NCBI GenBank assembly: GCA_023957335.1
Contig: JAMLHC010000001.1
Location: 578,017 to 642,016, forward strand
Source: Bacteroidota bacterium
GTDB lineage: Bacteria > Bacteroidota > Bacteroidia > NS11-12g > UBA955
Direction of reading: 5' to 3'
DNA length: 64,000 nucleotides
Each line of letters starts with the position of its first letter. Position 1 is the first letter of the stretch. The notes beneath the pieces are model-generated. The model worked only from the letters and a program-made list of their open reading frames with translations. It ran no database searches and was not told the origin of the DNA. This document shows positions 7,506 to 46,936 of this stretch, in pieces. A program made the position numbers and the translations under genes.

Positions 7506-10334
7506 TCACTTTACCAACTCTCTTGCCAAAAACTTTGCTGTGTAACCAACATTCGCCTTCACAATCTCTTGCGGAGTACCCGTACATAATACTTCTCCCC
7601 CTTTATGCCCCCCTTCGGGACCCATATCAATAATATAGTCTGCTACTTTGATTACATCTAAATTGTGTTCAATTACTACAACCGTATTCCCTTTATCTAC
7701 AAGTTTATTTAACACATCTAATAGCATTCTTACATCTTCAAAATGCAAGCCTGTTGTAGGTTCGTCTAATATATAAAAGGTGGAACCGGTATCTTTTTTT
7801 GATAACTCTTCCGACAACTTCACTCTTTGCGCTTCGCCTCCGGACAAAGTTGTAGAAGATTGACCGAGTTTTACATAACCTAAGCCCACGTCTTTGAGTA
7901 CTGTGAGTTTGCGCTGTATTAATGGAATATTTTCAAAAAAAGGTTCTGCATCGGCTATACTCATGTTGAGCACATCTGATATGGATTTGCCTTTATAGCG
8001 AACTTCCAATGTTTCTCTGTTATAACGCTTGCCGTTGCATGTAGAGCAAAGCACTTCCACATCCGGCAAGAAGTTCATTTCAATGACTTTGTGCCCGCCT
8101 CCTCTACATTCTTCACATCTGCCTCCTTTGACATTGAAAGAGAATCTACCGGGTTTGTAACCTCTGATTTTAGCTTCAGGCATTTCGGCAAAGAGGTTTC
8201 GGATTTCAGTAAACAGTCCGGTATAAGTTGCGGGATTTGAACGCGGAGTCCTGCCAATAGGGTCTTGGTCTATGCGTATCACTTTATCAATGTCATTTTC
8301 TCCTTTTGCTGATTTGTATGGAAGCGGTTTTTTTCTGCTGCCATATTTAGCTTTTGCCAAAATAGGATAGAGTGTTTCATTCACCAGTGAGGATTTTCCA
8401 CTACCTGAAACACCTGTTACACAAATAAATACTCCTAATGGGAAATCAACATCAACTTGTTTAAGATTATGCCCTGAACATCCTTTGAGCTTAATCCATT
8501 TGCCTGACAATTTTCTATGCCTCTTGGGCGTTTCGATCTGTTTTCGACCACTTAAATAATCTGCCGTAATTGAATTTTGTTTTGCAAAATCAAGTGGACT
8601 ACCCGCTGCCACGACATGTCCGCCTTGTATGCCTGCTTTGGGTCCAATATCCACAATATAATCAGCCTCACTAATCATTTCAGCATCATGTTCCACTACA
8701 ATCACAGAATTGCCAACATCTCGCAAGTCTTTAAGCGATTGAATAAGTTTCATGTTATCTCTCGGATGCAATCCTATGCTCGGTTCGTCAAGGATATATA
8801 GGACATTGACAAGTTTTGACCCTATCTGTGTAGCAAGCCTGATTCGCTGTGCCTCTCCTCCGCTCAGTGTAGATGCCGGACTATTCAATGTCAAATAGTC
8901 CAAGCCTACTCCCATCAAAAAACTCATGCGTTCTCTGATTTCTTTGAGTATTTCGGTAGCAATTTCTTTTTGTCTTTCATTCAATTTGGCATCAACCTTT
9001 TTCATCCAATCATTCAGTTCTCCAATGGTCATTTCGGCTAATTCAGCAATATTTTTATCTGCTATTTTATACCATAAAGCCTCTTCTTTCAGCCTTGTGC
9101 CATTACAAGCAGGGCAGTCAACGGGGTGCATAAACTCCTCTGCCCACTCCATCAAGGCTTCACTACGGTTTTCATAAAATTGTTCTTCTATTGTAGGAAT
9201 TACACCTTTGAAATGGGTAAACACCTCGATTTTTCGTCCCTCATAGTTTTCATAGGTTACCTTAAACTCTTCATCTGTACCGTGCATGACAATATCCATA
9301 ATCTCGGGACTTAGTTTACTTACCGGGTCTGCAAGACTAAATCCGAATTTTTTGCTTAATCCTTTTAGTTGTGCAGATACATAATTACCTTTGATTTCTC
9401 CCAGTGGAATAATAGCGCCCCTCATGATGGATTTGGAAGTATCGGGAATGATAGATTCAATACCAATTTCATGAATGATACCGATTCCGTTGCAACGAGG
9501 ACACGCACCATAGGGAGAATTAAACGAAAAAGTATTGGGTTGAGGCTCATCATAAGACAGTCCTGTTTCGGGGTCAATCAGGTTTTTGCTGTAATAAAAC
9601 ACCTTTCCGGTATTCATTTCTATTACCACCAATGATCCTTTACCAAGCTTAAAACTCAATTTGAGGCTGTCTCTCAAACGGGTTTTGTTTTTATCGGTCG
9701 GTTCAAGTCTGTCCACAATCAGTTCAATATCATGAACTTTGTATCGGTCGAGTTTCATTCCGCGACTGATTTCAAAAACCTCACTATCTATTCTAACCTT
9801 GCTATAGCCTTGTTTATGCAAACTTTCAAACAACTCTCTGTAATGACCTTTTCTTGCTTTGACAAGAGGGGCGAGCAACTGTATTTGTTTGCCTGCAAAC
9901 GTTTCTATCAGAAGTCCCAGCACTTGTTCTTCGCTATAACGCACCATTTTTTTACCGGTTTTATAGGAATATGCCTCACCCGCTCTTGCATAGAGTAAAC
10001 GGAGAAAATCGTAAATCTCTGTAATCGTCCCCACCGTAGAACGCGGGTTTTTGCTGACTGTCTTTTGTTCAATCGCAACCACAGGACTCAAACCCTCAAT
10101 TTTATCTACATCCGGACGTTCCATCCCTCCAATGAATTGACGTGCATAAGAGGAGAAAGTCTCCATATATCTGCGCTGCCCTTCGGCAAAAATGGTATCA
10201 AATGCGAGCGAAGATTTGCCACTCCCGCTCAATCCCGTAAAAACCACAAGTTTCCCTGCAGGAATCTTTAAGTCAATGTTTTTCAGGTTATGTTCTCTTG
10301 CACCAAATATTTCAATTTCTTTTGAAAATGCCAT
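7506..10334 (-). CDS. uvrA: UvrABC system protein A
   Basis: DNA damage sensor ATPase of nucleotide excision repair. The 942-aa protein has two ABC modules: Walker A TGLSGSGKSSLAF (about residue 33) with signature LSGGEAQRIRLA, and TGVSGSGKSSLVN with LSGGEAQRVKLS. Zinc-binding cysteine pairs are visible (CPRCNG, CPACNG, CEECRG with CSTCNG). The start ATG overlaps the stop of the upstream rluD-like gene by one base (TAATG), so translation is likely coupled. uvrB and uvrC are not in the window. Confidence 0.98.
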   Translation of the reverse strand: MAFSKEIEIFGAREHNLKNIDLKIPAGKLVVFTGLSGSGKSSLAFDTIFAEGQRRYMETFSSYARQFIGGMERPDVDKIEGLSPVVAIEQKTVSKNPRSTVGTITEIYDFLRLLYARAGEAYSYKTGKKMVRYSEEQVLGLLIETFAGKQIQLLAPLVKARKGHYRELFESLHKQGYSKVRIDSEVFEISRGMKLDRYKVHDIELIVDRLEPTDKNKTRLRDSLKLSFKLGKGSLVVIEMNTGKVFYYSKNLIDPETGLSYDEPQPNTFSFNSPYGACPRCNGIGIIHEIGIESIIPDTSKSIMRGAIIPLGEIKGNYVSAQLKGLSKKFGFSLADPVSKLSPEIMDIVMHGTDEEFKVTYENYEGRKIEVFTHFKGVIPTIEEQFYENRSEALMEWAEEFMHPVDCPACNGTRLKEEALWYKIADKNIAELAEMTIGELNDWMKKVDAKLNERQKEIATEILKEIRERMSFLMGVGLDYLTLNSPASTLSGGEAQRIRLATQIGSKLVNVLYILDEPSIGLHPRDNMKLIQSLKDLRDVGNSVIVVEHDAEMISEADYIVDIGPKAGIQGGHVVAAGSPLDFAKQNSITADYLSGRKQIETPKRHRKLSGKWIKLKGCSGHNLKQVDVDFPLGVFICVTGVSGSGKSSLVNETLYPILAKAKYGSRKKPLPYKSAKGENDIDKVIRIDQDPIGRTPRSNPATYTGLFTEIRNLFAEMPEAKIRGYKPGRFSFNVKGGRCEECRGGGHKVIEMNFLPDVEVLCSTCNGKRYNRETLEVRYKGKSISDVLNMSIADAEPFFENIPLIQRKLTVLKDVGLGYVKLGQSSTTLSGGEAQRVKLSEELSKKDTGSTFYILDEPTTGLHFEDVRMLLDVLNKLVDKGNTVVVIEHNLDVIKVADYIIDMGPEGGHKGGEVLCTGTPQEIVKANVGYTAKFLARELVK

Positions 10335-11371
10335 TATTCCTCCATCTTATTACTGTTTACATATCGTCTGAGTTTTTCTAATACCGTTTTGAAATCTTCA
10401 GGAAAATCTGCTTCAAAATATATTCTTTTCTTGGTTTTGGGGTGTTCAAACCCTAATGAATAGGCATGCAAAGCCTGTCGTGGCAGGATAGAAAAACAAT
10501 TATTAATAAACTGATTAAATTTACCAAAAGACATCCCTTTCAGAATCACATTACCGCCATACATTTCATCGTTAAAAATAGGGTGCCCAATGTATTTCAT
10601 GTGTGCCCTGATTTGGTGAGTCCTACCGGTCTCGAGTGTACATTTAATCAATGTTACAAAATGAAATCGTTCCACCACCTCATAGTGAGTAATTGCGTGT
10701 TTGCCTTGTTCCTCATCTGTTGTAACTACTGAACGCCTTCTGTCTTTTGGGTCGCGCATTAGGTTACCTACAATTGTTCCATTGTCTTGTTTCACATCTC
10801 CCCACACAAGTGCATAATAATTGCGGTCTATGCTATGGTCAAAAAACTGTTTTGCCAAATAGTTGAGTGCGTATTCGGTTTTGGCAATTACCAGCAGCCC
10901 ACTTGTATCCTTGTCTATCCTATGTACCAGACCCGGTCTTGTTATATCATCTCGATGGGGCAAATGTTCAAAATGATGCACCAAGCCATGTACTAATGTT
11001 CCAGTATAATTATTATACCCCGGATGCACAACCATTCCCGCAGGTTTATTGATTATCAACAGTTCATCATCTTCATAGACTATAGTTAAGTCCATCTTTT
11101 CAGGATGAATCTCTGTGTCACGTGGCGGCTCGGGCAGCACCACCGAAATCACATCATTTGGCTTGACTTTATAATTGGATTTGACAACATTTGAGTTGAC
11201 CAAAACACTACCGGCTTCAATTCCTTTTTGGACTTTGGTTCGGGTTGCATTTGGAATCCTATGAGTCAGAAAAACATCAATTCTGATGGGATTTTGACCA
11301 GGGTCCACTTGGATACTAAAATGTTCGTATAAATCCCTATCTTCGGACAGGCTCTCCTGCTCCTCATTCAT
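10334..11371 (-). CDS. rluD: RluD/RluA-family 23S rRNA pseudouridine synthase
   Basis: Isomerises uridines to pseudouridine, most likely in 23S rRNA. An N-terminal S4 RNA-binding domain (RIDVFLTHRIPNATRTKVQK) is followed by the catalytic domain with GLVHRIDKDTSGLLVIAKT, containing the catalytic Asp, and the RTHQIRAHM motif. The ATG at 11371 gives 345 aa and is preferred to the upstream in-frame start at 11398. It overlaps uvrA by one base. RluD is the best fit because of the S4 domain, but RluC-like specificity cannot be excluded. Confidence 0.88.
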   Translation of the reverse strand: MNEEQESLSEDRDLYEHFSIQVDPGQNPIRIDVFLTHRIPNATRTKVQKGIEAGSVLVNSNVVKSNYKVKPNDVISVVLPEPPRDTEIHPEKMDLTIVYEDDELLIINKPAGMVVHPGYNNYTGTLVHGLVHHFEHLPHRDDITRPGLVHRIDKDTSGLLVIAKTEYALNYLAKQFFDHSIDRNYYALVWGDVKQDNGTIVGNLMRDPKDRRRSVVTTDEEQGKHAITHYEVVERFHFVTLIKCTLETGRTHQIRAHMKYIGHPIFNDEMYGGNVILKGMSFGKFNQFINNCFSILPRQALHAYSLGFEHPKTKKRIYFEADFPEDFKTVLEKLRRYVNSNKMEE

Positions 11372-11449
11372 AGGTGCAAAGGTAACTAATCTGCACAAAA
11401 TATATAAGTGAGAGGATAAAGCAAGCTTCTGCCTAATCCGTCACTCTGT

Positions 11450-11932
11450 TTACTTTACTTTATCAAAATAAATATCTCCATCCACGCCAAAACTTTCAAT
11501 ATTGGCTTTGAGGACTAATTGCGTTTTTGAAATTGACACAATTTCAGCCGTATCTGTGAGAAAAATAACATCAATAAACATCCGATCCTTACCCACCATC
11601 ATCCATGCGCCTTGCTGAGTTTGTGCATCAGCATCATTACATTTGGTTTCTCCTTCATCAATCAACAACAAATCGTCTGCTTGAAACTGATAAGTATTGT
11701 CTTTTTGACAAGGTTGAAAAATGGGTAGTATGGATGAGTTCCAAACATCAATCCCTTGGGACATTACTTTGGTAACTTTCCAAGTATTTGACATCACAAG
11801 TTCTTTGTTGGTAGGTGGTTTAGGCTCTTCTTTCTTGTCTTCATCTTTTTTATCTTTCTTGCAAGAAGTAATAAAAATAGCGCTGAGCGCAAATACGGAT
11901 ATTAAAAGAGTACTTAATATTGTCTTTTTCAT
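11450..11932 (-). CDS. Lipocalin-like lipoprotein
   Basis: Secreted lipoprotein of unknown function, 160 aa. Signal peptide MKKTILSTLLISVFALSAIF with lipobox ending ITSC at about residue 24, then a Lys/Glu/Asp-rich linker (KKDKKDEDKKEEPKPP) and a compact beta-rich domain with NTWKVTKVMSQGIDVW, resembling Bacteroidota lipocalin-like proteins. It probably sits in the outer membrane. The fold assignment is tentative. Confidence 0.6.
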   Translation of the reverse strand: MKKTILSTLLISVFALSAIFITSCKKDKKDEDKKEEPKPPTNKELVMSNTWKVTKVMSQGIDVWNSSILPIFQPCQKDNTYQFQADDLLLIDEGETKCNDADAQTQQGAWMMVGKDRMFIDVIFLTDTAEIVSISKTQLVLKANIESFGVDGDIYFDKVK

Positions 11933-37665: not shown

Positions 37666-38433
37666 TTATAAGTCTTTTCTACCAAACTTTCTCAACGATA
37701 AAAGCAGAGGTATTAAAGCCCATAATGCAAGAATAGAATAAGCGATTATCGTCCCCATCGCACCTGCAAAACTTTGTTTGAACACCGCGCTGGTAACTCC
37801 CATGAGTGCCGAAATATCCATTTTGAGCAAAGTAATAATTCTTACTAAATCAATCGGATTGAGTGCACTCAACCCAACAATAATACCTTCAAGTGGATAT
37901 TCCAATAGCTGAAACAAAACAAACATAACTAATCCGTCAAACAGGAGTGCAAAATAGAGCCATAACAGAAGGGATGCGCCTATTCCTTTAGTTTTTTCCT
38001 GAATATATACAGATGCAAACAAAGAGATAGAAACAAAAATAACAGAAAGCAGAACTCCTGTTATAATCATTGTAAAACCAACTATTGTTGGTGCAAAAAT
38101 CAGTATAGGAAGTCCACATCCGATTACAAAAGCAATAATGAGTGCTATGGCTAATCCAATAAAGAAACTAATCCAAAGTGAATTTCTTTTGATAGGTTGC
38201 GCTATTAATAGCTCAATAAACTCTGAAGAGTTATAGATATAGATGGTAGAAAATATTGTACTGACTAAAGGAATTAATATCAGGTTTAGCGTAAGCAAAC
38301 TCATCAGACTCTTTTCGGGTACGTCCTCCAACATAAACAACCCTAAAGAGAATAGTAATAAAAAGAGTGTGTAGGCAATGACTATTTTATTCCTCAGAAT
38401 ATCAACAACAACATATTTTATGACTTTCTTCAT
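37666..38433 (-). CDS. nosY: NosY, ABC permease for N2O reductase maturation
   Basis: 255-aa protein with six membrane helices (VIAYTLFLLLFSLGLFML; LILIPLVSTIFSTIYIYNS; and others) and the NosY feature YIYNSSEFIELLIAQPIKR. With NosF it forms the NosDFY complex that helps build the copper-sulfur CuZ centre of NosZ. Overlaps nosF by four bases (ATGA), last gene of the nos operon. Confidence 0.88.
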   Translation of the reverse strand: MKKVIKYVVVDILRNKIVIAYTLFLLLFSLGLFMLEDVPEKSLMSLLTLNLILIPLVSTIFSTIYIYNSSEFIELLIAQPIKRNSLWISFFIGLAIALIIAFVIGCGLPILIFAPTIVGFTMIITGVLLSVIFVSISLFASVYIQEKTKGIGASLLLWLYFALLFDGLVMFVLFQLLEYPLEGIIVGLSALNPIDLVRIITLLKMDISALMGVTSAVFKQSFAGAMGTIIAYSILALWALIPLLLSLRKFGRKDL

Positions 38434-39155
38434 AGTTTTAAATTTTGATTGTTAGCACTCATTATCTGAGCGATAGCTTCTGTTAATTTTACTTTTCCGG
38501 TGTCTTTTTTCACATCTTCAATGGGTTTACAAAAGATAATCCTCCCTTCTTCCATATAAACAATCTGATTGATAACCTCATCTAATTCACTTAGTATATG
38601 AGATGTTACTAGTATTAATTTCCCTTTTTCCTTCTCTTTCAATATTTTATCTTTCAATACCAAAGAAGCAACAGGATCAAGACCCGCAGTGGGTTCATCT
38701 AAGATAAGTACTGCCGGGTCGAACAAAAACGCTAAATACGCACTCACTTTTTGCCTTGTTCCTCCGGACAATGTGCCCATACGTTTATTGAGAATATTTT
38801 TCAGATTGAAACTATCATATAGTTCCTTGTCCAGATTAGCCTTACGACCATCTCTCAAATCCTCAATCATTTCCAAAACATGTCCTACTTTCATATTTTC
38901 AGGATATCTGGCAATTTGGGGCATATAACCAATTTGATGGCGATATTCCCATTGTCCTTTGATTGGTTTGTCCATAAAAAATATCTCGCCTGAATTAGGG
39001 ATAACCATACCCAACAGGCATTTAATAAGTGTGGTTTTGCCACACGCATTTGGACCAATCAATGCAATTATATTCTTCTCACCTAAGTGAAGGTTAACCT
39101 CTTTGAGTACTTTAAAATTATCGAATTGCTTATTAATGTTTGTGAACTGAATCAT
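38430..39155 (-). CDS. nosF: NosF, ABC ATPase for N2O reductase maturation
   Basis: 241-aa ATPase with Walker A LIGPNACGKTTLIKCLL, the signature LSGGTRQKVSAYLAF and Walker B AVLILDEPTAGLDP. The Gln/Asn-Ala-Cys loop of the P-loop (GPNACGKTT) is characteristic of NosF. It is coupled to nosD by a four-base overlap and to nosY downstream. Confidence 0.92.
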   Translation of the reverse strand: MIQFTNINKQFDNFKVLKEVNLHLGEKNIIALIGPNACGKTTLIKCLLGMVIPNSGEIFFMDKPIKGQWEYRHQIGYMPQIARYPENMKVGHVLEMIEDLRDGRKANLDKELYDSFNLKNILNKRMGTLSGGTRQKVSAYLAFLFDPAVLILDEPTAGLDPVASLVLKDKILKEKEKGKLILVTSHILSELDEVINQIVYMEEGRIIFCKPIEDVKKDTGKVKLTEAIAQIMSANNQNLKL

Positions 39156-40405
39156 TCGTGTATTGTTTTAATTTTCTTCATAGACGGGTTATTATCTTTG
39201 AGATTTTCCGGCACCATACTAGGGAGAACGCTTTCTGCCTTGTCCATCATACTGACAAAAAAACTTCTAAATAGCATCAATGCACCGGGATTTCGTTCTA
39301 TGATAAGGGAATAAAAGGTAATGGGTCTGTATGGCACATCTCCAACACCGTCTTTGTTTAAATCATAACCGTCATATTTGTCCCAAAAGTTGCCATCAAG
39401 TGATTTCATGATTAACTTACCATTAGTAGCAAGGTCAAAGGTATTGCCAATAAAATTGTTATTCGTTACTATAAAATCACTACTACTTGCATTGATTTTA
39501 AGTGCCCAACCATTATTAGTAAATCTGTTATTTTTGATTTCAATTCTATTGGAACCATCGGCAAAAATAGCCATGGTATTTGTAGTAAAGTCATTATCAT
39601 CAATCTTACTGTCATTGATTTCCTTTAGCAATAATCCGTAAGCTGCTCCTCCCCAATTATCAGCAAATACATTGTTATACATTTCAACCCGTTTACTATA
39701 CATCACTGCTACCCCGGCTCCATTGCCTTTATAGACGTTTTCACGAAACACATTATCATGCGAAAACATGAAATGCATGCCATAGCGGCTATTGCCTATG
39801 CTTTCATTGTGCTGGATGAATGAATGAGTAACAAACTCAAAATATATCCCGTCTCTATGACCGTGGATTTTATTATTTTTTATTGTAAGATGATTGCATT
39901 TCCAGCTGTGAATCCCATTTGCGGCAGGTTTATCTTTACTCTTACCTGATTCTAAAACATTGTTCAAGTAAGAAACATAGGATGAATTCATGGTCAAAAT
40001 TGCAAAAAAGTTATTCTCAAATCTGCAATTTTCAATGAGTATATTTTTTGTATTATTTATCTTGAGCGAAGCAATATCATTGAAGCTTGAGCTACCTGAA
40101 TTTTTGAACAAGATTCCTTTAATAACAACATTTTCATGCTCAACAGTCAGATTCTCATATTTATTTTCACCATCAATTTCAGGAAAATTTTCGCCAAGAA
40201 GTACCAAGGATTTTTTTAAAAAAATAGCTCCTTCTTTATACAATCCGGGTTTAATCAAAATGGTATCTCCATCTTTTGCAGTATCAATAGCTCTTGTAAG
40301 CGATTTAATATTGTTATTGGGAGTTACAACAAAAGTTACTGCAAACAGATTTGAAGATACAAATAACAGAAATGCAGTTATTCCGCTGAAATAAATTCTT
40401 CCCAT
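39152..40405 (-). CDS. nosD: NosD, periplasmic copper-processing protein
   Basis: 417-aa exported right-handed beta-helix protein with a signal peptide (ISGITAFLLFVSSNLFAVTF region) and repeated parallel strands (LKINNTKNILIENCRFENNF; NSRYGMHFMFSHDNVFREN; AVMYSKRVEMYNNVFADNWG). NosD binds copper and delivers it to NosZ with NosFY. It overlaps nosL by 28 bases. Confidence 0.92.
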   Translation of the reverse strand: MGRIYFSGITAFLLFVSSNLFAVTFVVTPNNNIKSLTRAIDTAKDGDTILIKPGLYKEGAIFLKKSLVLLGENFPEIDGENKYENLTVEHENVVIKGILFKNSGSSSFNDIASLKINNTKNILIENCRFENNFFAILTMNSSYVSYLNNVLESGKSKDKPAANGIHSWKCNHLTIKNNKIHGHRDGIYFEFVTHSFIQHNESIGNSRYGMHFMFSHDNVFRENVYKGNGAGVAVMYSKRVEMYNNVFADNWGGAAYGLLLKEINDSKIDDNDFTTNTMAIFADGSNRIEIKNNRFTNNGWALKINASSSDFIVTNNNFIGNTFDLATNGKLIMKSLDGNFWDKYDGYDLNKDGVGDVPYRPITFYSLIIERNPGALMLFRSFFVSMMDKAESVLPSMVPENLKDNNPSMKKIKTIHE

Positions 40406-40836
40406 TTTAATTTGCTACCTTCAAACTGTGAAAAATATGTATTAAGGCTGTCTTGAGATTCAAAAGCTGCAGTGTTTGACCCCATTGGGCTTTGAAGTTT
40501 GTCATTGTGCAGCAGAAAACAGTTTTCTGCATTTGTCAGATTACCCGGCATAGAAAAATCCACTACCCACAATGAATGGATATTTGTGTTGATTATTGAT
40601 TTATCATTTATAAAGCCTCTAAGACAATGCAGGTCGTCAAACTTGTAAACTCTCCCTTTATTTGTTACTAACTCCGCGCCAAATCTATTATCACTAATAG
40701 TCATTGCGCAATAATCACAATTGTCGGTTCCGAAGGCAATCGGTTTTGGACCTACACTGCATGAACTCAGCAGCAGTGATATAAAAATCAAAAAAAGAAA
40801 AGTAAAAGAATAATTTGATTTAACAAGACTCATCAT
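40378..40836 (-). CDS. nosL: NosL, copper chaperone lipoprotein
   Basis: 152-aa lipoprotein (lipobox LLLSSC, Cys 26) with the copper(I)-binding motif NCDYCAM at about residues 39-45 and the NosL core FGAELVTNKGRVYKFDDLHC. It supplies copper to NosD/NosZ. Coupled to the nosB-like gene by a four-base overlap. Confidence 0.93.
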   Translation of the reverse strand: MMSLVKSNYSFTFLFLIFISLLLSSCSVGPKPIAFGTDNCDYCAMTISDNRFGAELVTNKGRVYKFDDLHCLRGFINDKSIINTNIHSLWVVDFSMPGNLTNAENCFLLHNDKLQSPMGSNTAAFESQDSLNTYFSQFEGSKLKWEEFISAE

Positions 40837-41417
40837 TTTCTTCTGATTTCAATAAAAGCACAAAATAAAATAATAACACCCACACCTGCCATAATCCATC
40901 CCCCAAGATCAGGAATAGAATATGCACCGAAGTTAAGCAGTTGTTTAAACCCGAGTAATGGTGGTTGATATGTCATACCGGGCACTTGAATAGGAGCAGT
41001 AGGGTCAAGGTTATGTCCGTAATTATACAACCACATATAAAAATCAATCATAGCAGCAATTGCAAATGCTATAAAAGAACCTCCCCAAACATAGAAAAAC
41101 CACTTTCTGTTAATAACTGCAGTAAGAAGTCCGAATAAACCAATAACAACAAATATATAGGGCAAAACCTCGAACTCGACAAAATCTTTTTCACTCAGAT
41201 GTCGCATTCCTATGTAATGATTGAGTCCGTTAATAATATCAACTTGACCGGAGAGTTTATCAGCATGAATTTTAAGCACCAGCCCTTCCGGGTATTGGGG
41301 CGCGTCCAACTCAATTCTCCATATTGGCACAAAAATAACAATAAAGAGAGCTAAGCCGCCAACAAGAGACATAATCCTAGTTAAGCTTGACAATGAATTT
41401 TTTTTTGCAGTAGCCAT
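40833..41417 (-). CDS. nosB: NosB-like membrane protein of the clade II nos operon
   Basis: 194-aa protein with four membrane segments (about residues 13-34, 83-102, 107-130 and 170-190) and a periplasmic loop between the first two that contains LSGQVDIINGLNHYIGMRHL. A membrane protein at this place directly after nosZ is characteristic of clade II nos operons, where it is called NosB; its function is unknown. The gene name rests mainly on position and shape. Confidence 0.7.
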   Translation of the reverse strand: MATAKKNSLSSLTRIMSLVGGLALFIVIFVPIWRIELDAPQYPEGLVLKIHADKLSGQVDIINGLNHYIGMRHLSEKDFVEFEVLPYIFVVIGLFGLLTAVINRKWFFYVWGGSFIAFAIAAMIDFYMWLYNYGHNLDPTAPIQVPGMTYQPPLLGFKQLLNFGAYSIPDLGGWIMAGVGVIILFCAFIEIRRK

Positions 41418-41511: not shown

Positions 41512-43503
41512 CTAGTTTGCTTTGGGTGCTGTATCACCTGTTCCATAGCGTAACGGGGTGTTACTTCCGGCAGGGGAAACTCTCACATAACCTTGCATCT
41601 CTTGGTGTAATGCACTACAGAAGTCTGTACAATAGAATGGAACTATACCAACCTTTTTAGGCATCCACTTCATCGTCTTGGTTTCTCCGGGGAGTATTAA
41701 CATCTCTGCACTTGTTGAACCAAGAATAGTGAATCCGTGAGGTAAATCCCAATCTTGTTCAAGGTTTGTCAAGTGGAAATAAACTTCGTCACCCACTTTT
41801 ATACCTTCAATATTGTCCGGTGTAATGTGTGAACGTACCAGTGTCATATAGATATCTACTCTGTTTCCGTTTCTAACAATCTTTGTTTCGCCTTCGCCTT
41901 TTGCAACATAAGGATGATTGTTTTTTGTAATATCAAAAATCCTAACTTGATTATCTTTGATTTTACTTGCCGGAATCATGATTGCATAGTGAGGTTCACC
42001 AATAGTTGGGAAGTCAAGCAATAATTTCATTTTGTCTCCTGAGATATCAAATAATTGTGCGCTTTGACAAAGTTCAGGACCAGTTGGCAGATAACGGTCT
42101 TTTGTAATTTTGTTCCATGCTACAAGGTATTTGCCATAAGGTGTTTTGGAATCTCCACCGGCAACTGTTAAGTGGCCAGTTGAATAAAAAGTAGGCTGTC
42201 TGTCAATCACTTCAAGGGTTTTCAAATTCCATTTAACAACTTCAGACGAAACAAAGAATGATGTATAAGCATTTCCATTTGCATCAAACTCGGTGTGCAA
42301 TGGACCTAATCCCGGCTTTTTAACTTCTCCATGAAGCACAGCTTGATATTTTAATACAGGAACACCATCAAAATTACCTTCATAATTTTTCTCTTCGATT
42401 GCTTTTATCATCTTCTGGAAAGAGAAAACCGGAATCAAAGAAGCTAATTTTCCACTTCCAACAATATATTCGCCAGTAGGGTCAACATCCGCACCATGTG
42501 GAGATTTAGGACATGGGATATAGTAGCACACGCCTTCCAAATCTTTCACATCTAATACCAATACTTCGTTTTTGGTAGTCGAATTCACAACAAAAGAATT
42601 TTCGTCCATTATGTTGTGAACATAATTTGCTTTAACTTTTCTTGCCTTTCCTGCTTTAACATATTCTTCAGCTTTTTTCCAGTTAACAGCCATAATAAAA
42701 TCTTTGTCTCTTTGCGAAGAATTAACCTCCAATAATGTATATGCCTTTTCTGTATTGTATGTAGAGAAGAAGAACCATCCGCTGCTTGGACCTTTGCCTG
42801 TATGGCTCAAATCATAATTTACCGGAGGGGTTTTTAACTGAAACGCAACGTCCATCTTTCCATTATCAGGATTAACACTAATAAAGCTAATTGCACCACT
42901 AAATTTATCTGCATACGAACTGATTGGAATATCTCCATTTTCATCGTCAAAAGGCACGCTGAAACGGGTACCTGCAACTACATACTCAGAATTATCTGTA
43001 ATAAAAGGTGAAGAGTGATTTCCGGCTGAATTAGGAATCTCAATTATTTCAGTAGTTTGAAAGGTCTTTAGATCAATTCTGGCAACACGTGGGGTATTAT
43101 TTTCATTTGCAAACAACCACCTGCCATCATACTCGCCATTTGTTTGAGAAAAAGACAAGTGATGTTGGTCTCCCCAAGGGATAAACCCGTGTGAAGTCAT
43201 AAGCATATTTTTTGTTTCTTCACTATATCCATAACCAGATTCAGGATCTGCTGAAAATACAGGGAGTACTTTAAAAAGTCTTCCGGAAGGAATTCCATAA
43301 ACAGAAACTTGTCCACTAAAACCACCTGACACAAAAGAGTAGAACTCATCATACTGTCCCGGTGCAACATAGACTTTCTGTGCAGCATCACCACTTACGG
43401 CTGTTGTTGCTGTTTTAGGCTTACAACTCTGGAAGCCAATTGCAGTAGCAAAAATGGCAGCAGCCACAGCTACAAATCTCGATTTTGATTGAATTTGAAA
43501 CAT
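41512..43503 (-). CDS. nosZ: Nitrous oxide reductase, clade II, predicted lipoprotein
   Basis: Reduces N2O to N2 in the periplasm. The 663-aa protein has a seven-bladed propeller with the CuZ histidines visible (DQHHLSFSQ, NYVHNI, SPHGADVDP, LHTEF, GEPHYA) and a C-terminal cupredoxin CuA domain with FYCTDFCSALHQEM. No twin-arginine signal is seen; the N-terminus (FATAIGFQSC, Cys 27) is Sec-type with a lipobox, as expected for clade II. Preceded by a cytochrome c gene and followed by nosB, L, D, F, Y. Confidence 0.97.
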   Translation of the reverse strand: MFQIQSKSRFVAVAAAIFATAIGFQSCKPKTATTAVSGDAAQKVYVAPGQYDEFYSFVSGGFSGQVSVYGIPSGRLFKVLPVFSADPESGYGYSEETKNMLMTSHGFIPWGDQHHLSFSQTNGEYDGRWLFANENNTPRVARIDLKTFQTTEIIEIPNSAGNHSSPFITDNSEYVVAGTRFSVPFDDENGDIPISSYADKFSGAISFISVNPDNGKMDVAFQLKTPPVNYDLSHTGKGPSSGWFFFSTYNTEKAYTLLEVNSSQRDKDFIMAVNWKKAEEYVKAGKARKVKANYVHNIMDENSFVVNSTTKNEVLVLDVKDLEGVCYYIPCPKSPHGADVDPTGEYIVGSGKLASLIPVFSFQKMIKAIEEKNYEGNFDGVPVLKYQAVLHGEVKKPGLGPLHTEFDANGNAYTSFFVSSEVVKWNLKTLEVIDRQPTFYSTGHLTVAGGDSKTPYGKYLVAWNKITKDRYLPTGPELCQSAQLFDISGDKMKLLLDFPTIGEPHYAIMIPASKIKDNQVRIFDITKNNHPYVAKGEGETKIVRNGNRVDIYMTLVRSHITPDNIEGIKVGDEVYFHLTNLEQDWDLPHGFTILGSTSAEMLILPGETKTMKWMPKKVGIVPFYCTDFCSALHQEMQGYVRVSPAGSNTPLRYGTGDTAPKAN

Positions 43504-43583: not shown

Positions 43584-44057
43584 TTACTTCACTCCATCAT
43601 TCTTACGCATGAATTCAACAAGTGCATAAGCCTCTTCATCAGCTACATTTTGGTTTGGCATTCTCACCAAACAAATTTCTAACTGTGATTGCAATTCGGG
43701 GTCTTTGTCTAACATTTCGTCAGGATTGGTAATAAAATTAAGCAACCAAGCCGGTGTTCTTCTTTGTGTCACACCGTGCCATCCGGGACCAACCAATCTT
43801 TCGTCAGTTAATTTATGACAACTCTGACATTTCATATCATATATAGCTTTGCCTTTATCTGCTTTTGCATTGTCGAGTGCTCCTAACACTACATCTTTGA
43901 ATTTACCTTCTCCTCTGTGAGGGTCGTATTCACTAACTTCTTTCTTTGTATCAGTTGTTTGCTCTGTTGTACTACTTGTGTTTTCTTCATTTGTAGTTTG
44001 AGAACCTCCGCATGCATATAGTAATGCAGCAAATCCAATTAAAATTATTTTTTTCAT
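43584..44057 (-). CDS. Cytochrome c lipoprotein, likely electron donor to NosZ
   Basis: 157-aa lipoprotein (MKKIILIGFAALLYAC, Cys 16) with a negatively charged Ser/Thr-rich linker and one haem site CQSCHKL; the axial Met is likely in LVRMPNQNV. First gene of the nos operon. The start at 44057 is chosen because it directly precedes a lipoprotein signal; the frame is open upstream. A -7 element TACATTTG lies at 44082-44089. Confidence 0.88.
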   Translation of the reverse strand: MKKIILIGFAALLYACGGSQTTNEENTSSTTEQTTDTKKEVSEYDPHRGEGKFKDVVLGALDNAKADKGKAIYDMKCQSCHKLTDERLVGPGWHGVTQRRTPAWLLNFITNPDEMLDKDPELQSQLEICLVRMPNQNVADEEAYALVEFMRKNDGVK

Positions 44058-44081: not shown

Positions 44082-44132
44082 CAAATGTAGATATGAAAAA
44101 CAGAACAGAAAATGATATTAATCATGAATCAA
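44082..44132 (-). promoter_or_regulatory. Promoter and possible FNR/CRP-type site of the nos operon
   Basis: -7 element TACATTTG (44089-44082) with only a weak -33. Upstream is TTAAT-CATGA-ATCAA (44118-44132), close to the FNR pattern TTGAT-N4-ATCAA but with a five-base spacer and one mismatch. Oxygen or NO control would make sense for nosZ, but the match is weak. Confidence 0.3.
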
Positions 44133-44343: not shown

Positions 44344-45582
44344 ATGCCGAAACTATTCAAACTGCCTGATTCATGGGGTGCAATTTGCTTGTTTAATCTT
44401 TTTGTTGCTTCTATTATCGGGGTGATTATGAGATATAAAATCAATTTCCCATTACCCGGTATTGTTCAAGCTAATATGCTGCATGCTCATTCTCATTTTG
44501 TTTTTCATGGCTGGGCAACCCTCACTTTAATGACTGCCTTTATTAGTCTGATACTGCCTGAGAGAATTAAAAGAACATTTCCGTATTTTGCTATCTTTTG
44601 GCTTTCACTCATTCTGTCTTGGGCTATGCTTATCAGCTATTCTTTTCAAGGTTACTCTCCTGTTTCTATTGGATTTACTACTGCTGCAAACATAGTTTTC
44701 TATTGGTTTGCAGTTAAATTTATCATGGATTTGAAAAGAATAGATGCTCACAAAGTGGTAAAATACTTTGCAATAGCATCTATTGTATCTTTTATTATAG
44801 CATCTATCGGAGAATATTTTTCTGCGAGTTTTTCATTATATGGACCTTCTACACCTCTGATTACACGAGGGGCAATGTATTTTCTGTTACATTTTATTTA
44901 TAATGGTTGGTTTTCCTTTGCAATCATCACACTGTTTTTTCAATGGTTAACCACCAACAAAATCAAGTATAGACATGAAACCTTATTAAAAGTTTTTGTT
45001 CTGCTTGCAATAGGATTAATTCCCGGATATGCTCTTTCATTAATCGGATATGTGAATAAACCTTGGGTTTATGTGTGCTCCTATTTTGCAATCATAACAC
45101 AAATGATAGCAGTTTATATGCTACTTAATATGATTATAAAAGCCAGAAAACAAATCAATCAAAATCTATCTCTATTCTCAAAAATTCTGTGGGGCACAGC
45201 ATTTCTTGCTTTTATTGCAAAAACAGGAATGCAGATGGGATCTTTGAGCCCCGATTTGGCAATTATTGCATTCAGCCTTCGCCCGCTGGTAATAGGCTAT
45301 CTCCATCTAATCTTCATCTGCTTTGTCAGTTTCTTTTTATTTGGGTATATGATTGAGAAGGACAAACTGAGTTTTAAAGCATCTTCACCGGCACGTAATG
45401 GAGTAATTGCCTTCTTTGTCTTTTCTTTTCTTAGCGAACTACTGTTATTCCTTCAAGCAGCCGGAAATTTTTTCTACTTCCCTGTTCCCAACATTGCCTT
45501 GATTATTTATTACGTAACGATTGTAATGTCTTTGTCACTGTTGGTTTTTGTATTAGGACAGATAAGAAGATATTGGAAATGA
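44344..45582 (+). CDS. Unassigned 12-helix membrane protein, haem-copper oxidase subunit I-like (copy 1)
   Basis: 412 aa with about 12 membrane segments. Helix 2 carries LHAHSHFVFHGW (His 47, 49, 51, 55), helix 6 LLHFIYNGWFSF (His 183), helix 10 LRPLVIGYLHLIF (His 321). A His-rich helix 2 and His in helices 6 and 10 recall haem-copper oxidase or NorB-type subunits, but the HH of helix 7 and any HPEVY motif are missing. Homologous to the next gene. Divergent from the nos operon. I do not recognise a named family; haem binding is inferred. Confidence 0.75.
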   Translation: MPKLFKLPDSWGAICLFNLFVASIIGVIMRYKINFPLPGIVQANMLHAHSHFVFHGWATLTLMTAFISLILPERIKRTFPYFAIFWLSLILSWAMLISYSFQGYSPVSIGFTTAANIVFYWFAVKFIMDLKRIDAHKVVKYFAIASIVSFIIASIGEYFSASFSLYGPSTPLITRGAMYFLLHFIYNGWFSFAIITLFFQWLTTNKIKYRHETLLKVFVLLAIGLIPGYALSLIGYVNKPWVYVCSYFAIITQMIAVYMLLNMIIKARKQINQNLSLFSKILWGTAFLAFIAKTGMQMGSLSPDLAIIAFSLRPLVIGYLHLIFICFVSFFLFGYMIEKDKLSFKASSPARNGVIAFFVFSFLSELLLFLQAAGNFFYFPVPNIALIIYYVTIVMSLSLLVFVLGQIRRYWK

Positions 45583-45709
45583 GCAGGTGAAAATACTCAA
45601 TTCCTTACTTTTTTATTTAAAATCATTCAAAATAAGCCCTTAATTTGCACCCCGAAAAAAAGAGTATAAAAATAATTTTATTAACTCTTTTTCATTGTAA
45701 ATTCAATTC

Positions 45710-46936
45710 ATGAGAAAGATAGCTATTCCTCAAATTTGGGCTACAATATGCCTGATAAACCTCCTTATAGCTTCGTTGCTGGGTTTGCTCATGAGATACA
45801 TACTTAACTACCCTATTCCTTTCTTGAATTTTGAATTTATTCTGCACTCACATTCTCATTTTGTATTTTATGCATGGGCTACTATGGCACTCTCTACATC
45901 ATTAGTAACATATTTGCTGCCGGATGACAAAAAGAATAAGACATCTTATGCATGGATATTCTGGATATTATTCTTTAGTTCCTATGGCATGCTTATCACT
46001 TTCATAATTCAAGGGTATAAAGTTCCTTCTATTGTATTTTCTTCCATAGCAACCTTTGTATTCTACTGGTTTGCTGTCATCTTTATTAAGGATATGAGGA
46101 AATCAGACAATACCTCTCTGGTAAAATATTTTTCCTATATTGCAGTAATTTCCTTTGTTATTTCGTCTTTAGGTCCATATTTTCTTGCCTATTTCTCCGC
46201 CACCGGTCAAACAGCACCTTTGTATATCAATGGTGCACTATACTTTTACTTACACTTTCAGTATGACGGCTGGTTTACATTTGCTGTCTTTGCACTATTC
46301 TTGCATTGGCTTGTTAGAAATAAAATCATTTTTGACTCATCTATTTTCTTTAAATTCTTTGCATTGTTGGCATTCAGCATTTTCCCCGGATATGCATTAT
46401 CTATCATTGGACTAACGGATGCATATTGGGTCAATTTTGCAGCACAAATTTCAATCATCGCGCAATTGATTGCTATGGTTTTATTCATTCAATTCTTTAT
46501 TCAATCGCGAAAAAAAATTGCTGCCCATTTACAAGGTTTGACCAAAATCCTTTGGATGACTGCCTTTGTTTCTTTTGTTGCTAAAACCATTATGCAGTCA
46601 TTTTCAATTGAGCCCGAGATTACAGCTTTTGCCTTTAGCTACCGACCGGTTGCTATTGGTTTTTTACATTTGATTTTCTTGTGTATAATCAGCTTTTTTA
46701 TTTTTGGGTTTTTCTTTGAGAAAAATTTATTCCAAGTCAATAGAAACGTATTGTCAAAAAGCGGTGTAATCCTCTTTGTAGCAAGCACTTTGTTGAGCGA
46801 AGCTATTCTATTTTTAGAATCTGCGGGGGCATTTTTCTCTATTGCAATGCCTAACTTTAATCTCTGGTTGCTATATATTACAGCAGTACTTTCTGCGTCT
46901 TTAATATTGTTTTTGATAGGACAAATCAAATCCTAA
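45710..46936 (+). CDS. Unassigned 12-helix membrane protein, haem-copper oxidase subunit I-like (copy 2)
   Basis: 408-aa paralogue of the preceding gene, with the same helix pattern: LHSHSHFVFYAW (His 46, 48, 50), LHFQYDGWFTF (His 182) and YRPVAIGFLHLIF (His 320). The fourth His of copy 1 helix 2 is Tyr here (position 54), and His 199 is extra. It starts 127 bases after copy 1 and may have its own promoter. Conservation of the three His positions between the two copies argues that they bind haem or metal. Confidence 0.75.
   Translation: MRKIAIPQIWATICLINLLIASLLGLLMRYILNYPIPFLNFEFILHSHSHFVFYAWATMALSTSLVTYLLPDDKKNKTSYAWIFWILFFSSYGMLITFIIQGYKVPSIVFSSIATFVFYWFAVIFIKDMRKSDNTSLVKYFSYIAVISFVISSLGPYFLAYFSATGQTAPLYINGALYFYLHFQYDGWFTFAVFALFLHWLVRNKIIFDSSIFFKFFALLAFSIFPGYALSIIGLTDAYWVNFAAQISIIAQLIAMVLFIQFFIQSRKKIAAHLQGLTKILWMTAFVSFVAKTIMQSFSIEPEITAFAFSYRPVAIGFLHLIFLCIISFFIFGFFFEKNLFQVNRNVLSKSGVILFVASTLLSEAILFLESAGAFFSIAMPNFNLWLLYITAVLSASLILFLIGQIKS

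Follow-up and report, generated by a model that had tools for sequence, protein, structure and literature searches.

An unnamed Bacteroidota membrane protein family with the haem-copper oxidase fold, linked to nos, nor and nir genes and possibly relaying electrons to cytochrome c

A tandem gene pair facing a nos operon

The window (the whole 64,000-nucleotide stretch of DNA analysed here) holds two tandem genes, ORF1 and ORF2, that diverge from an operon for nitrous oxide reduction (Table 1). Their products were predicted to be homologous membrane proteins, and they align without a gap over 402 residues at 45% identity; ORF2 retains the conserved His, Lys, Arg and Glu positions of ORF1, with numbering one residue lower. 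Where does the tandem come from? In the tree, ORF1 groups with its orthologue from a related MAG, ORF2 does the same, and the two pairs are sisters with full support, which places the duplication within the lineage. The tandem arrangement was seen in just one further genome, JAGFIU01. The original prediction also noted that one copy replaces the fourth helix-2 His by Tyr. This is correct for H55, which is Tyr in ORF2, but the column varies across the family (A, S, L, Y, T) and its loss is therefore uninformative. H47 is not conserved either, being E, N, Q or Y in other members.

The opposite strand carries a clade II nos operon, as predicted, recognised by the model matches of NosZ and NosL and followed by NosD, NosF and NosY. 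The membrane protein encoded next to nosZ is presumably NosB-like, a name that we take from its position in the operon. The operon begins with a gene for a cytochrome c lipoprotein, whose ATG start was used here (an in-frame TTG lies upstream at 44084); the same protein is fused or adjacent to the ORF1/ORF2 family in relatives. The intergenic palindrome, of the form ATGAT-N4-ATCAT, is the sole match in the window, with 0.14 expected. Similar TATGA-N6-TCATA boxes lie upstream of the family gene in relatives, and an ATGA-N6-TCAT box occurs within 1.1 kb upstream of it in 15 of 53 loci, against about 0.07 matches per locus expected from the remaining sequence (adjacent matches were counted twice, in the observed and the expected numbers alike). 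The source genome also carries nirK and norCB, and the host thus looks like a nitrite-to-N2 denitrifier. As for NorB itself, in the source genome (L020/L157) and in an alignment of 13 from Bacteroidota, the sequences have no conserved His in the helix-6 region (QWKxxGxLVGxWN), and Met replaces the second helix-10 His (HAMG), so that they depart from the textbook cNOR.

Table 1. Features of the locus, with coordinates in the window
Feature	Coordinates	Strand	Description
nosD, nosF, nosY	37666..40405 (nosD 39152-40405, nosF 38430-39155, nosY 37666-38433)	-	assigned by order and sequence; conserved in relatives
nosL	40378..40836	-	PF05573
NosB-like gene (presumed)	40833..41417	-	conserved membrane protein; kept in relatives' nos operons
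nosZ	41512..43503	-	clade II (Sec-dependent) nitrous oxide reductase; TIGR04246, 932 bits
Monohaem cytochrome c lipoprotein	43584..44057	-	PF00034; first gene of the divergent nos operon
Crp/Fnr-type palindrome ATGATATTAATCAT	44112..44125	.	between the cytochrome c gene and ORF1
ORF1	44344..45582	+	412 aa, haem-copper oxidase-fold membrane protein, 12 helices
ORF1 H49-S50-H51	44488..44496	+	helix 2; H49 in every member, predicted ligand of the low-spin haem; two-residue uncertainty of register versus H51
ORF1 H183	44890..44892	+	helix 6; probably near the helix-6 CuB/FeB ligand position
ORF1 H321	45304..45306	+	helix 10; universal; aligned to low-spin haem ligand
ORF2	45710..46936	+	408 aa, tandem paralogue of ORF1; sister clades in tree
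ORF2 H48-S49-H50	45851..45859	+	equivalent to ORF1 H49-S50-H51 in the gap-free alignment

An unnamed family with the fold of subunit I

What kind of protein is this? The original prediction could not name the family, and the searched databases hold no name for it. ORF1, ORF2 and their relatives gave nothing significant against Pfam, NCBIfam and the PDB sequences; the cut-off of Pfam COX1 (PF00115) was not reached, the best match being one relative at E 0.76 (9 bits against 34.8). A RefSeq record, that of a plasmid of Tunicatimonas pelagia, labels a member 'hypothetical protein', and a search of the open-licence literature returned no description of the family. Scanning genome contigs with a single query sequence found one close relative. 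A profile built from 13 relatives matches in 112 of 395 Bacteroidia genomes, of which 110 were kept as carriers after two short matches at E 8e-4 had been dropped; the family is also present in further classes of Bacteroidota.

The structure models are more telling. The AlphaFold2 model of ORF1 (pLDDT 84, pTM 0.87) shows twelve long helices, the number expected from the earlier reading, and its only significant PDB matches in Foldseek belong to the haem-copper oxidase superfamily, with the cbb3 subunit CcoN on top. VIA-align superposes it over some 390-397 residues, with Z 32 to CcoN (397 residues) and 30 to cNOR. A member of a distant clade gives the same picture (pLDDT 91, pTM 0.92, Z 33 to CcoN, Foldseek in agreement), so that both models have the 12-helix fold of subunit I. 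Profile comparison with hhalign, which had been suggested as a check, points the same way: the family matches pooled NorB and CcoN with Prob 95 and E 3e-8, in register over 398 columns (ORF1 has 412 residues), and two unrelated membrane proteins used as controls gave Prob 0.1-0.2. Prob was 78 against NorB alone, 63 when a different family alignment was used, and 0.6 against CcoN alone, whose alignment was probably too shallow. A clear match to a known non-haem transporter family, which would have spoken against a layout of the oxidase and NorB kind, did not turn up. Membership in the haem-copper oxidase superfamily is thus well supported, in the limited sense of a shared fold and common descent. 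Within Bacteroidota the family forms an unnamed, phylum-wide group built like subunit I of haem-copper oxidases and NO reductases.

A second unnamed polytopic family, of 417-450 aa and with HAH motifs, occurs in part of the clusters that contain the ORF1/ORF2 family (L022:11942-13234, L026:6522-7775, L144:1160-2449, L152:1049-2335, L153 and L154). It has a profile relation to both the ORF1/ORF2 family and NorB, and lies partly in NO-related clusters; in L022 and L026 its neighbours are DUF1858/DUF2249, RIC and norB. It resembles the ORF1/ORF2 family in its profile (Prob 95.6, E 1e-8, 286 columns) and in its HAH/GW motifs, but has its HAH mid-protein and lacks the helix-10 His. It likewise has no Pfam name.

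A predicted low-spin haem site without a catalytic centre

In NOR and cbb3 oxidases, helices II and X provide the ligands of the low-spin haem b. NOR binds its high-spin haem b3 through a His that precedes the helix-X ligand of haem b by two residues, and its non-haem metal through helices VI and VII (PMC10256718). Which of these sites are left in the family? Conserved His residues had been assigned to helices 2, 6 and 10, and the model puts them there, with H47/H49/H51 in the helix at 42-70, H183 in that at 171-204 and H321 in that at 313-338. Conservation was counted in 69 members, 53 from the Bacteroidia clade and 16 from the distant clade. H49 and H321 are present in all 69 and H51 in 66 (Asn in the other three); R30 and W57 are universal as well, and few members lack Y104, K293 or G188. 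Within the Bacteroidia clade, E365 is invariant and N187 conserved. H321 is aligned to the low-spin haem ligand, and the helix-2 motif HAHSH to the RPLH His of NorB and CcoN. Which of its His residues would be the ligand, H49 or H51? The hhalign alignment sets H51 opposite the RPLH His, with a gap close by; we favour H49, because it is universal and because the distant clade has R46-x-x-H49, an RPLH-like pattern. In either case the sequences retain the helix II and helix X His residues of a low-spin haem.

The other ligands appear to be lost. Y319, two residues before H321, is aligned to the high-spin haem ligand, and this position is Tyr or Phe in nearly all members (40 and 13 of the 53; 11 and 3 of the 16), leaving no HxH in helix X. 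Helix 7 (residues 211-233) has neither an HH pair nor any conserved His, and helix 6 has no HPEV, in keeping with the absence of the HH pair and of HPEVY noted earlier. H183 is found in all 53 members of the Bacteroidia clade and in none of the 16 of the distant clade, which has Glu at column 187 and, one turn before H183, His at column 179; in L149, an additional member, Tyr stands at the H183 position. The full CuB/FeB set, a helix VI His plus the helix VII HH, is thus missing, and H183 is confined to the Bacteroidia clade. The CuB site is incomplete, as had been predicted, and the high-spin haem ligand appears to be lost as well. Unlike cbb3 CcoN (8-12% identity) and NorB (about 12%), with which it shares the fold and, for CcoN, the His positions in helices 2 and 10, the family lacks the helix-7 HH and, at the aligned position, the high-spin haem His. 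It also differs from CcoN in its surroundings, with no CcoO or CcoP gene adjoining. NorB shares with it a full-length profile alignment and, in some genomes, operons with norC-norB; the norC partner of a cNOR NorB is absent from the window, and in the few genomes where the family gene lies beside norCB a separate norB exists.

Judged by the ligand features tested, a family member is, at the level of sequence, neither an oxidase nor an NO reductase. The low-spin haem site would be kept and the catalytic site dismantled, with haem occupancy something that we infer. Reduction of O2 or NO of the known kind is unlikely, given the Tyr or Phe at the high-spin ligand position and the lack of a helix-7 HH. 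Could it nonetheless be a genuine reductase, for instance of NO or N2O, whose active site is unusual in that H183, N187 and Y319 substitute for the standard ligands? cbb3 and NOR have the nearest folds, the Bacteroidia clade conserves H183 and N187, and His 179 and Glu 187 of the distant clade lie on the same helix face. But with H183 missing in the distant clade and in L149, no helix-7 HH or high-spin haem His at the aligned positions, and NosZ or NorB already present in many carriers, we regard this as very improbable. The threefold pseudosymmetry of the fold also raised the idea that helices 2 and 6 may hold another haem between them (H51 and H183).

Linkage to nosZ, norB and nirK

In the sample of 395 Bacteroidia genomes the family is present in 110 and clade II nosZ in 129, with an overlap of 88 (odds ratio 24, p 5e-35). 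Collapsed to genera, the count of co-occurrence with nosZ that had been called for gives 57 genera with both, 7 with the family only, 25 with nosZ only and 107 with neither (odds ratio 35, p 9e-22; kinship above genus is uncorrected). In 57 genomes from 38 genera, no more than 12 kb separate the family gene from nosZ. Is the link then specific to N2O respiration? Where norB is absent, as judged by a Bacteroidota NorB profile, the family is still linked to nosZ (odds ratio 34); where nosZ is absent it is linked to norB (odds ratio 18.5), and among nosZ-bearing genomes norB adds nothing. Fifteen of the 110 carriers have neither nosZ nor norB, with NirK above its cut-off in five of these. The proposed link to N2O respiration is therefore right about the strong tie to nosZ (88 of 110 carriers) but drawn too narrowly, since the family also occurs in norCB operons and nirK clusters.

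The gene arrangements mirror this range. The family gene can be found next to a cytochrome c gene (cytc-family), ahead of norC-norB (in L159 the family and norC genes overlap by 4 bases), and in nirK clusters with SCO and cytochrome c. A nos-type cytochrome c gene also stands beside a NirK that has its own cytochrome c domain. In L079, a copper nitrite reductase (10242-11681) that ends in a C-terminal cytochrome c domain is encoded in a cluster with SCO1/SenC, next to the family gene; that genome lacks nosZ and the type of NorB searched for. In L081 and L156, two species of one genus, the family protein is fused to the nos cytochrome c, with an extra hydrophobic segment with a lipobox-like end before the haem domain, and from its sequence the fusion may be split by processing into two proteins. 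An 812-aa frame in L099, examined as a further fusion, is probably an over-extended ORF.

Might the protein be an assembly or metal-delivery factor for NosZ, NorBC or NirK, inserting for example copper or haem, with the helix-2 HAHSH as a metal site? Its gene lies inside nos operons beside maturation genes, an SCO-like protein accompanies it in nirK clusters, and helix 2 starts His-rich. Yet the family is missing from 41 of the sampled genomes that carry nosZ, and is thus not required for NosZ; copper is not common to NorBC, and a full-length oxidase fold with a universal helix-10 His is atypical of chaperones; we consider this role improbable. A small fasciclin-domain lipoprotein (L075:4115-4684 and similar) is another companion of nos clusters, in or beside them in 10 of 32 neighbourhoods and once between nosL and nosD.

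Regulatory genes are also frequent neighbours. A Crp-family gene may stand beside a divergent nos operon, and is the immediate upstream partner of the family gene in about a dozen loci; Rrf2 and ric lie upstream in a few, in the order Rrf2-ric-family-cytc-nosZ-...-nosY. In one case this arrangement is found on a plasmid, that of Tunicatimonas pelagia (L155, NZ_CP120684.1, 48806-69729), where Tn3-family transposase genes flank a complete clade II nos cluster made up of Rrf2, ric, the family gene, cytc, nosZ to nosY and also Crp. The cluster is possibly a mobile N2O-respiration island. Is the family a membrane haem sensor that controls the adjacent Crp or Rrf2 regulator? The upstream Crp, and the few Rrf2 and ric genes, would fit, but no regulator adjoins the family gene in the window, in the norCB operon of L159 or in L065, and the protein has no signalling domain or long cytoplasmic part. 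We consider such a function very improbable.

Electron relay or protection from NO?

Our preferred reading is that the family is a membrane haem-b electron relay from menaquinol to periplasmic cytochrome c, serving NosZ, cNOR or NirK; we put its probability at about 45%. The fold, the loss of motifs, the conserved His pattern, the genomic linkage and the cytochrome c fusion are computed results. The His pair of helices 2 and 10 would have been retained to hold a low-spin haem b near the periplasmic face, with loss of the CuB/FeB and high-spin haem ligands. Electrons would be taken from menaquinol, the donor that we infer, and passed to a putative acceptor, either NorC or the nos operon's membrane-anchored monohaem cytochrome c; cytochrome c or NorC would then deliver them to NosZ, cNOR or NirK. 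Transfer to cytochrome c is argued from the linkage with three cytochrome c-dependent reductases, the operons with norC or the nos cytochrome c, the fusion and the preserved low-spin haem site. But why would these bacteria need it? Bacteroidota own an alternative complex III for cytochrome c reduction, and a second route to cytochrome c is therefore not obviously needed; nor was a quinol site recognised in the family. More tentatively still, the oxidase fold may have been repurposed, Bacteroidota-wide, as a dedicated quinol:cytochrome c protein or subunit for denitrification with NosZ, cNOR and NirK.

The main rival, which we find somewhat unlikely, is a membrane protein that protects from or buffers NO, similar to NnrS: it would hold haem (perhaps a metal), be made when NO is present and limit nitrosative damage, and would not itself carry electrons for respiration. 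An NO-linked role is suggested by the regulators and NO-repair genes among the neighbours. The family gene is often directly behind Crp or in Rrf2-ric operons, with Crp/Fnr-type boxes at promoters and genes for truncated haemoglobin, hemerythrin, DUF2249 and RIC nearby, and the carriers that lack both nosZ and norB would be accounted for. The Crp, Rrf2 and RIC neighbours also fit protection from NO, which counts against a relay. There is also a precedent, nnrS being predicted to encode a heme-copper membrane protein of NO-responsive regulons (PMC1274295). The likeness to NnrS goes as far as a polytopic haem-type membrane protein of such gene sets: ORF1 and ORF2 gave nothing against PF05940 at E up to 10, the source genome has no NnrS model match, and hhalign to two true NnrS sequences gave Prob 0.3, a weak test given that number. 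Few Bacteroidota have a true NnrS at all, with 3 of 198 genomes above the cut-off. A bis-His low-spin haem would, moreover, bind NO poorly, and protection from NO leaves the cytochrome c fusion and the norCB operons unexplained.

What would a relay to cytochrome c mean for these bacteria? In one genome survey, 53% of the genomes of terminators (nosZ without nir) belong to Bacteroidota (PMC12569097). Within a known superfamily, the family is an unnamed branch that has been catalytically stripped, and would be a rare case of an oxidase fold without its catalytic centre. To our knowledge, the electron path to clade II NosZ in Bacteroidota is not settled, and a conserved haem-type membrane protein, as yet without a name and encoded in nos, nor and nir operons, is a direct candidate for it. 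If the relay is real, it would be an electron route to clade II NosZ apart from NosR, NosG/H, bc1 and alternative complex III.
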